Shown here: in pieces, positions 15,050 through 22,679 of the stretch | Numbering within the stretch: the stretch's first letter is position 1 | Layout: each line of letters starts with the position of its first letter | Origin: a virus | Length of the DNA stretch: 23,400 nt | Direction: 5' to 3' (one strand) | Virus record (IMG/VR): IMGVR_UViG_3300048672_001213 | Location: 1 to 23,400 of that record | Notes under the pieces: model-generated | The model's input: the letters and a program-made list of their open reading frames with translations, nothing else | Told to the model about the DNA's origin: nothing | Databases searched by the model: none | Program-made: the position numbers and the translations under genes

Positions 15050-15277
15050 TTAAAAAAGTGATAATTGTTTTTGTTCTTCTAGAACTGACTCCCATAGGTT
15101 TGGGAACATTTCTAAATACCTGTTCATGTAGTCAAAAGATTGACCACCAAGTATCGTAATATCTATGAATTTTTGCTTTAACCTAATTAATGGAACTTTC
15201 TCTCCGTCAACCAGATTAGCATAAATTATATTACTTTCTCTGCTTATGAAATAGCAGTTTTCAATGTGAGGGATCAT
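15050..15277 (-). CDS. 75-residue protein with C-terminal clamp-binding motif QLSLF
   Basis: This small protein starts MIPHIENCYFISRES and has beta-like segments (IIYANLVDGEKVPLIRLKQKF), then a helical end NLWESVLEEQKQLSLF. The last five residues, QLSLF, match exactly the consensus QL(S/D)LF by which bacterial polymerases, MutS and other proteins bind the beta sliding clamp. A free C-terminal position is the usual place for such a peptide. The motif is seen; clamp binding is inferred. Its ATG overlaps the stop of the preceding gene by one base (TAATG). It could tether a phage function to the host replication fork or interfere with clamp loading. No other domain is recognised. Confidence 0.65.
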   Translation of the reverse strand: MIPHIENCYFISRESNIIYANLVDGEKVPLIRLKQKFIDITILGGQSFDYMNRYLEMFPNLWESVLEEQKQLSLF

Positions 15278-15636
15278 TACTTCAATATCTTTTCCATAAT
15301 TCCCTCCATTGCCTTTGGATTGCGTTCGTGAGCCATGAGAAAACTACAAATCAAAGCTTTATCTAATAAGTGGTTTTTCATCACAAACTCGGCATTATTT
15401 TTAACCACGTTATAAAAGTGCATTGTGCCTTCTGCTGAAGCTTCAAATATTTCATTGTACTGTTTTGTCTGCTTATCTAATGGAGCATAAATTCCTTTGA
15501 GCTGTGTTTTTAATGGTTTGTTTGCCATTGGATTTTTTTTTAAATCTAAATCGTCCAGAATTTCAATTGCACGTTGCATTAATATTCTAAGTTCAATTAG
15601 ATTATAACCGGTTTGGTGTTCTTGTGATAGCTGCAT
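15277..15636 (-). CDS. Conserved hypothetical phage protein, 119 residues
   Basis: This 119-residue helical protein has segments IELRILMQRAIEILDDLDLK, KNPMANKPLKTQLKGIY and AEGTMHFYNVVKNNAEFV, ending with HERNPKAMEGIMEKILK. No catalytic or binding motif is apparent. It starts one base after the PcfJ-like stop region ends on the other side and couples to the 75-residue gene by a one-base overlap. Two genes with linked translation in a replication-linked run suggest a shared process, but I cannot name it. Confidence 0.65.
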   Translation of the reverse strand: MQLSQEHQTGYNLIELRILMQRAIEILDDLDLKKNPMANKPLKTQLKGIYAPLDKQTKQYNEIFEASAEGTMHFYNVVKNNAEFVMKNHLLDKALICSFLMAHERNPKAMEGIMEKILK

Positions 15637-15637
15637 T

Positions 15638-16963
15638 TTAGGATACTTGTTTGATTTTTCGACTTCTGTGCGTTGGGTATTCTAATTTCTTGATCTTGGT
15701 AAGGTTTCTTGTTACCAATTGAATTATTTTTTTGTGATGCTCCGTTGGGTCATTATTTAAACCCCTGGATTGTTCTATTTTTAAAGTAGGGAGAATTAAC
15801 TCGATTGTCTCTGCTCTTTTTCCATCTACTTTTGCGGATAGTATCAACGATTTTTCCTTTAAATAGTACTCATTGGTATAAACACAATGATTAAGCTCGT
15901 CGCCCTCTTCTTTGAATTCTTCGACACTTTTTAAAACTGAAATTGAAATATTTTTGTCTTTTATTTCTAAGCCAAAAAACTTCTTATTTCGCTCTACATA
16001 TTCTTTTATTGCTTTTTCAAGATTTTGCTGACGTTTAATAATTTCCTGACGTTGGCGCTGTCTTTCTTCACGTGCTAATATTTTACGTTTCTTTTTCATT
16101 AGCCGATCATGCTCTAATTTTAAGTTTTTAGGGCATACGTATTTTACATTTAGCAAATCTTTTTTGAAGTATTGCAATAGGTCCAAATAGTCAATATAAA
16201 TAGTATAGTCATTGGGTTTATAGTTGTTCCTAATGCAAATTTTAAATGTGTTCCAATAACTATTTATTCTATAAGAATACCCAAGGCCTAGTAAACCGTA
16301 TTGCTTTGCTTTGAGTAGCGTTTCCAACTTTGAATTGTACGGAACCAGTTTCACCGCTTCAAGAAAAGTCAATCCTCTTAAATTGCAGTCAATACCGAAT
16401 TTTTTATATTCGGGTTTAATTTCTGAATCAGGGTGATACTTTCTGGCATATACATCGTATTTAGATCTATTCCAACTCCTTGTATTTTCAACTCTAATTT
16501 CCATATTACCTCCCCAAGAATCACAAAAAGCTTGTGTGTTATGTTGTAGGCCAAACATGGTAACTTTTAAATTAGGCTGAATCCAGTACTGCAATATTTC
16601 ATGGAGTAAGTACTTAACCGGTTGACCTTTTTTATAGTGGGCAATTAGTTCGAAGTTTCTAACTATTTGGAATTCGTAAAGAGTATCACAAATTGCAAAA
16701 TAATTTTTTTGGGTGTCGGTAGTGCAACGCGATTCTTTGATTTGAAGCTTTGTTTTGCAATGCGGACAAGTTGCCCTTTTTCTACTCACTAAATTTGGTG
16801 AGAAGGTTTCCCTACAATCAAGACAAAGCACTCTATTTTTGGTTGCATAACCTCGATGCTCTAAACATTCTTTGTAAGCCCATTGCTTTTGGCGGTCAAG
16901 TATTTTTGGTAGGTATTGGCTTAACTCGACAACCCTTTTCTGAAGTATAGTTTTTGGGTTCAT
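15638..16963 (-). CDS. PcfJ-like protein
   Basis: The chosen start, ATG 16963, gives 441 residues beginning MNPKTILQKRVVELSQYLPK, the N-terminal form I recall for PcfJ-like proteins; an ATG at 17002 adds 13 residues. Two CxxC pairs (about Cys47/50 and 66/69) make a zinc ribbon. A long basic helical region (RKILAREERQRQRQE) precedes the conserved C-terminal block EEGDELNHCVYTNEYY, SLILSAKVDGKR, ETIELILPTLKIEQSRG. PcfJ is named from the conjugative plasmid pCF10 and its molecular role is unknown; relatives are common in Bacteroidota mobile elements. It follows the PcfK-like gene with a 68-nt overlap. Confidence 0.82.
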   Translation of the reverse strand: MNPKTILQKRVVELSQYLPKILDRQKQWAYKECLEHRGYATKNRVLCLDCRETFSPNLVSRKRATCPHCKTKLQIKESRCTTDTQKNYFAICDTLYEFQIVRNFELIAHYKKGQPVKYLLHEILQYWIQPNLKVTMFGLQHNTQAFCDSWGGNMEIRVENTRSWNRSKYDVYARKYHPDSEIKPEYKKFGIDCNLRGLTFLEAVKLVPYNSKLETLLKAKQYGLLGLGYSYRINSYWNTFKICIRNNYKPNDYTIYIDYLDLLQYFKKDLLNVKYVCPKNLKLEHDRLMKKKRKILAREERQRQRQEIIKRQQNLEKAIKEYVERNKKFFGLEIKDKNISISVLKSVEEFKEEGDELNHCVYTNEYYLKEKSLILSAKVDGKRAETIELILPTLKIEQSRGLNNDPTEHHKKIIQLVTRNLTKIKKLEYPTHRSRKIKQVS

Positions 16964-17372
16964 AGCTAAAACAAAGTTGGTTGCACACTTTCTTTTGTTC
17001 ATCTTTTTTTGGAGCTGATTTCTTCTTCATTCGCTCCATTTCTTGACTAATTATTTTGTCCTTTGCATCCTGTTTAGCTTTGGCAATATCATCTTCTGAA
17101 AGTTCTACTGTATGATTAACTACAACTTTACAATTTACATTGCCTTTATCGTTGATTGAATCTTCATCGTAGTAGTGCTTTGCCATTCCAAAAATTTCTT
17201 CGTCAGCAAATCCGCTACAACCCGATTTTTGAACTGTTTGAAGAATATAATTTATACAGCCATCAATATTTTTATTTTCCTTTTTCAAAGTTTCAGCAAA
17301 CAATGGATCTTTTGCTGCGGTTTCATTCAAATGGTTTTGAATTATGGTTTTAAAATTGTCTGTCGATTTCAT
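16896..17372 (-). CDS. PcfK-like protein
   Basis: The 158 residues begin MKSTDNFKTIIQNHLNE and continue with the typical PcfK pattern: DPLFAETLKKENKNIDGCIN, SGCSGFADEEIFGMAKHYYD, CKVVVNHTVELSEDDIA and a basic helical tail. The last about 40 residues (from KKKSAPKKDEQKK on) are poorly conserved and overlap the PcfJ-like gene in another frame, so the true family domain is about 120 residues. PcfK and PcfJ usually occur together, as here. Function is not known; the context, amid replication and recombination genes, points to DNA metabolism. Confidence 0.85.
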   Translation of the reverse strand: MKSTDNFKTIIQNHLNETAAKDPLFAETLKKENKNIDGCINYILQTVQKSGCSGFADEEIFGMAKHYYDEDSINDKGNVNCKVVVNHTVELSEDDIAKAKQDAKDKIISQEMERMKKKSAPKKDEQKKVCNQLCFSYEPKNYTSEKGCRVKPIPTKNT

Positions 17373-22391: not shown

Positions 22392-22679
22392 TTAATTATT
22401 AAGTTTTAAAAAATACTCTTTGAAATTCCCGCTTACTGTTCGGGATTCAATTGGAACGTTCCAAAAGTCCTTAAGGTCTTTTATCCTACGTCTTAGGTCG
22501 CCAATCCTATATTCAAGTAATGCTTGAGTAGTCGTTAGCTTTTCGCCCCTTAAAAGAGCCTCATATACTATTTTACATTGTCTGGAAAACTTCGATTTAT
22601 TGGCTTCAAAATGCTCTTGACTTCCAATGTTATTTTCATGGTGTGAAAGATTTTCAAAATCTAATATTTGCTGATTCAT
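22392..22679 (-). CDS. Small helix-turn-helix protein (HTH_39-like)
   Basis: This 95-residue protein carries the HTH_39-like block SRQCKIVYEALLRGEKLTTT followed by QALLEYRIGDLRRRIKDLKD, then a wing-like NVPIESRTVSGNFKEYFL. Residues about 50-80 would form the recognition helices. It would bind DNA, perhaps as a small regulator or a recombination accessory factor. Its start overlaps the stop of the NinB-like gene by 4 nt (ATGA). The family occurs in phages and mobile elements of Bacteroidota; its target is unknown. Confidence 0.8.
   Translation of the reverse strand: MNQQILDFENLSHHENNIGSQEHFEANKSKFSRQCKIVYEALLRGEKLTTTQALLEYRIGDLRRRIKDLKDFWNVPIESRTVSGNFKEYFLKLNN

Follow-up and report, generated by a model that had tools for sequence, protein, structure and literature searches.

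The small gene and its neighbours in the window

The window, i.e., the whole stretch of DNA that was analysed, is an entire record of 23,400 bases. On its minus strand, the early genes encode a DnaC/DnaI-like AAA+ protein, a NinB-like, a NinG-like and an HNH protein, PcfK, PcfJ, a protein of 119 amino acids and a small protein. The early-region setting with a helicase loader and recombination genes, named in the original prediction, was thus recovered. A dnaN gene is absent, which holds for that record only. Coordinates are given in Table 1.

Table 1 Features around the small gene, in window coordinates
Feature	Position	Strand	Basis
Small protein with putative clamp-binding tail, 75 aa, phrog_14426 family	15050..15277	(-)	ORF; phrog_14426 E 2.4e-13; AF2
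Putative C-terminal clamp-binding motif, codons Q71-L72-S73-L74-F75 (CAA TTA TCA CTT TTT)	15053..15067	(-)	Invariance in 11 members; synonymous changes
119-aa gene directly upstream of the small gene	15277..15636	(-)	ORF; weak phrog_9957 match
PcfJ-like protein (PF14284), N-terminal part zinc-ribbon-like	15638..17002	(-)	Pfam E 5e-34; ORF
PcfK-like protein (PF14058)	16896..17372	(-)	Pfam E 9e-43; alignment with L002

Small gene: The reading frame runs from ATG to TAA, and its product ends in EEQKQLSLF. The position originally given for it was right; no strand had been named, and the gene lies on the minus strand, the plus strand being closed by many stops. A C-terminal QL[SD]LF is seen once in the whole set of the window's 34 genes, where 6e-5 would be expected from the window's own amino-acid composition.

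119-aa gene: Its stop overlaps the start of the small gene (TAATG), both in the window and in the closely related contig L002. In both, it stands where dnaN stands in four other contigs (L005, L028, L031 and L044).

PcfK: In L002, the PcfK gene carries a clamp-type C-terminal tail, QPTLF, in frame. Relative to L002, a 1-nt deletion in the window puts this tail out of frame, and the peptide can be read in another frame (16896-17002). The difference may be real or a sequencing error.

Elsewhere in the window, a 95-aa winged-HTH-like protein (22392-22679) starts with MNQQILDFENLS, a possible hexameric clamp motif at the N-terminus. A general enrichment of N-terminal clamp-binding motifs in these phages was not convincing (8 against 2.4 by shuffling, with a shuffle maximum of 8).

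The AF2 model of the small protein (mean pLDDT 85) has a body of three strands and one helix. Residues from about 7 to 64 are folded, and the disordered tail behind them carries QLSLF. With pLDDT values below 50 at residues 69-73, the motif lies exposed in a flexible, terminal segment. Foldseek found no match in the PDB at E ≤ 0.001 for either of two AF2 models of the small family, in which the tail is disordered. In BFVD, only two matches were significant, of 115 and 69 amino acids, and these lengths fit the members from the phages FpV9 and FL-1. The 75-aa protein matched 0 Pfam families and is thus not a member of the PcfK-like family PF14058. It was also without a match in the PADLOC defence families and NCBIfam.

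Family membership and conservation of the C-terminal pentapeptide

Apart from the last five residues, the original prediction knew no family for the protein. This had to be corrected, as the phrog_14426 profile is matched at its positions 59-115 of 115, up to the last position. The match spans the C-terminal 57 residues of the small protein, tail included. No function is assigned to this family. The closest relatives are found in L002-L004 (95% identity), L005 (66%) and L006 (53%), followed by FpV9 and other F. psychrophilum phages (45%). An FL-1 member was also found and confirmed by the profile at 2e-7; the members in L005, L006 and L011 match the profile as well. Contigs with PcfK, searched with the profile, yielded L028/L029, L031, L044, L061, L074 and L075, the last two being family members read on the same contigs as L032 and L039. 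In all, there are about 14 distinct members, mostly on metagenomic contigs. Two scans of 84,980 cellular genomes with strict peptide patterns, which can miss distant relatives, gave no confirmed relative, and none was found in plasmids with the patterns used.

The copy in L006 (L006:6001-6144; G005 16262-16486) has only 47 amino acids. There, the profile match runs on upstream, broken by stops, and the N-terminal part may be degraded.

An alignment of homologues, proposed as a check in the original prediction, was made with 11 non-redundant, diverse members (pairwise identity 22-86%, mean 44%). The last five residues do not vary freely, and Q-x-x-L-F is kept in every free-tailed homologue found. 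The tails are QLSLF, QLTLF, QLELF, QISLF, QLNLF and QFSLFN, the last having a single extra residue after the motif in one member. Q, the Leu at position 4 and F have a column identity of 1.0. Position 2 is Leu, Ile or Phe, and position 3 is free (0.2). On average, column identity is 0.77 in the tail against 0.42 in the body, and the linker before the tail is variable in length with values of 0.07-0.44. Within the motif, the Leu and Ser codons differ synonymously among homologues; hence, the peptide is conserved and not the DNA. The genes that follow the small gene vary from contig to contig. Judged from the ten other free-tailed members of this diverse set, all ending in Q[LIF]xLF, the QLSLF end is no chance string.

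Clamp-binding motifs (CBMs) are defined as Q-aliphatic-x-[LM]-[FL], with QLxLF as the highest-affinity form (PMC11139829). Residues 71-75 of the small protein conform to this definition. An engineered transposase with a C-terminal QLSLF binds bacterial beta clamps (PMC4549789), and QLNLF, the tail of the FpV9 and FL-1 members, is the UmuC motif known from a crystal structure with the E. coli clamp (PMC3716654). The tail of the small protein very probably binds a clamp of some kind.

The motif is conserved among homologues with one exception, in L011. At L011:5890-6741, the phrog_14426 domain (E 3e-10) lacks the clamp tail and is in frame with an RNase_T/DnaQ exonuclease (E 4e-17). In phage P2559Y, a relative of this exonuclease is a separate gene. 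The fusion, seen in one contig, points weakly to a role in replication or proofreading. An association of DnaQ-type exonucleases with the small gene was also considered; they occur in 7 of 22 records, with no clear pattern.

Phage-encoded clamps and PcfK tails

DnaN: In L005, the gene directly upstream of the small gene encodes a complete DnaN, with three Pfam beta domains and a TIGR00663 score above the cut-off. The order PcfK-PcfJ-DnaN-small is found in L005, L028, L031 and L044, and in L061 it is the same except that an 83-aa gene separates dnaN from the small gene. The spacing is tight. The dnaN stop overlaps the start of the small gene (TAATG) in L028 and L044, and the small gene starts one base after the dnaN stop in L005 and L031. 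A seed scan for DnaN with exact peptide patterns gave two contigs only; the remaining clamps came from comparing sequences within PcfK loci.

Of 49 records, 13 have dnaN and 18 have the small gene. Among the 39 PcfK-seeded records, dnaN occurs in 7 of the 8 with the small gene versus 4 of the 31 without it (Fisher p 1.5e-4, or 4.8e-4 after removal of a near-duplicate, in counts that ignore shared ancestry). The adjacency of dnaN in several relatives points to a putative clamp-centred gene module in Bacteroidota phages. It also lends independent support to the reading of QLSLF as a clamp-binding peptide at a free C-terminus, a highly probable assignment that, as a canonical motif kept in relatives, has held up since the original prediction. 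The linkage to a phage clamp is not universal, since the complete genomes of FpV9 and FL-1 have neither dnaN nor PcfK; the host clamp is therefore the likely target there. Of the 18 records with the small gene, 8 lack PcfK, some of them being fragments.

Pocket residues: The phage clamps were compared at positions of the E. coli clamp that form the peptide pocket. T172, D173, H175, P242, V247, N320, M362 and P363 are kept in 11 of 12. A divergent phage DnaN upstream of PcfK (L034:1905-2993) has several peptide-pocket residues changed.

PcfK tails: The PcfK-like proteins next to the small gene have tails of the same kind. In 35 non-redundant tails from 39 contigs, Qxx[LIM]F ends at most three residues from the C-terminus in 23, as compared with 0.05 in shuffled tails, and a looser CBM-like pattern is found in 30 of the 35 (0.37 by shuffling). 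The isolated phage Danklef_1 has a PcfK tail QISMF. In Bacteroidales plasmids, PcfK tails read APTLFDF, as well as QLTLFD at a PcfK-PcfJ read-through. The PcfK genes of L022-L060 mostly have CBM-like tails, which is a wider finding than that on the small protein itself.

In the loci examined, 41 of 645 genes end in a CBM-like motif, whereas shuffling gives 0.5. PcfK and the small family account for nearly all of the 41; the few others include an N6-methylase-like protein. This protein ends in QLQLF (L033:2241-2996). Among the early genes, other ends of this type were seen in a protein of unknown kind (QLSLF; L050:5498-5962), a DUF488 protein (QLSLF; L052:5116-5520), a further protein of unknown kind (QQSLF; L018:23754-24293) and a dATP/dGTP pyrophosphohydrolase-like protein (QIKMFE; L018:33132-33743).

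On the sequences at hand, we lean slightly towards a wider reading, in which Bacteroidota phages and plasmids share a clamp-centred module (PcfK, PcfJ, often an own DnaN and, in some phages, the small protein). PcfK and the small protein would have gained their C-terminal clamp-binding tails independently. The module would bring functions of the phage or plasmid to the replication clamp, and clamp binding would characterise the PcfK/AcrIIA9 domain family, which is widespread.

Proposed role and comparison with known systems

The computed features that bear on the role are the conserved free CBM, its position in a disordered tail, the linkage to dnaN with tight spacing and the like tails on the PcfK neighbours. 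From these, we infer clamp binding itself, a tether in preference to a blocker, and a partner of the folded part. The small protein likely assists phage DNA replication or recombination as a clamp-tethered accessory factor, which the sliding clamp would keep at the replication fork. The pentapeptide at its end is predicted to insert in the clamp's canonical peptide pocket. The folded 60-residue part would have a specific function, most likely the binding of a phage partner or of DNA, so that the protein would act as a tether. The target would be the host DnaN in the phage of the window, as far as the 23.4-kb record shows, and in other phages without a clamp gene; in relatives with dnaN beside the small gene, it would be the phage-encoded DnaN. 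The host clamp, the target assumed originally, is probably not the only one because relatives encode their own clamps.

The original prediction had left the choice between a tether and a clamp blocker. Its clamp-binding tail is supported by the features above, and the choice leans to the tether without being settled. As a blocker, the small protein would be an early inhibitor that fills the host clamp's peptide pocket, displaces host polymerases and repair proteins and so stops host replication. Its small size, the near-optimal motif and the early region would suit this role, and SocB shows that an inhibitor can work through the canonical pocket (PMC9690074). However, we consider a pocket blocker unlikely because relatives encode an adjacent clamp with the same conserved pocket, and a blocker would hit the phage's own clamp too. 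The phage of the window, with no own clamp in its record, would for its part depend on the host clamp. Simple blocking also needs no conserved folded domain, and in L011 this domain is fused to an exonuclease with the tail absent. The known phage clamp inhibitor Gp168 uses the DNA channel and not the pocket (PMC11139829).

Competing tails on several proteins of one module, together with the tight spacing of the small gene and dnaN, which suggests matched expression, could also fit a factor for clamp specificity. Such a factor would mark or cap a clamp, of the phage or of the host, and reserve access to it for phage enzymes whose tails match, PcfK among them, or it would alter clamp loading or unloading. 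However, the small protein showed no homology to parts of a clamp loader, and its gene occurs also without dnaN and without PcfK, which makes this role rather improbable. Least credible is a different meaning of the conserved C-terminus, which might be a degradation tag, a contact for some other protein or a product of chance. A hydrophobic C-terminus can serve as a degron, and clamp binding of the tail is itself predicted from sequence. Yet the invariant Q five residues from the end, the free position 3 and the QFSLFN variant are as expected of a CBM rather than of a generic hydrophobic tag. The linkage to dnaN also speaks against another role, and a chance run is opposed by the minute expectation within the window.

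CBMs and phage clamps as such are already known. A role of phrog_14426 at the clamp, the PcfK-PcfJ-DnaN-small unit and general CBM tails on PcfK were not found in the literature searched, the coverage of which was incomplete; searches for PcfK/PcfJ with clamps and for Flavobacterium phages with clamps gave nothing relevant. The finding offers a testable role, clamp binding, for an uncharacterised phage family and for the common, unexplained PcfK-PcfJ gene pair, and a phage dnaN shares an operon-like unit with proteins that bear the clamp's predicted docking peptide. The anti-CRISPR AcrIIA9 has the PcfK domain (PMC6739104). Should PcfK-domain proteins, AcrIIA9 included, prove to be clamp binders, replication would have to be considered in explaining what they do in mobile elements and their inhibition of Cas9.

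FpV9 and FL-1: The members in these Flavobacterium phages resemble the small protein in their profile membership and their C-terminal Q-L-x-L-F. The window copy lies inside a PcfK-PcfJ module, whereas the FpV9 and FL-1 copies lie outside such a module.

PcfK-like/AcrIIA9 domain proteins (PF14058): These are module neighbours of the small protein with the same kind of tail, but the small protein has a different domain.

Pol II, Pol IV, transposases and UmuC: These carry the same pentameric Q-L-x-L-F type of motif, usually at a flexible terminus (C-terminal, but internal in UmuC). In contrast to them, the carrier domain of the small protein has no known enzymatic activity, and neither polymerases nor transposases show a relation to it.

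Twort Gp168: This staphylococcal clamp inhibitor is likewise a small phage protein aimed at DnaN. As compared by description only, it contacts the DNA channel of the clamp, whereas the contact predicted for the small protein is the peptide pocket.

SocB: The DnaN-blocking toxin of Caulobacter, likened here by description, occupies the peptide pocket via a clamp-binding motif, as is predicted for the small protein. SocB is part of a toxin-antitoxin pair, whereas no such pairing was seen for the small protein.
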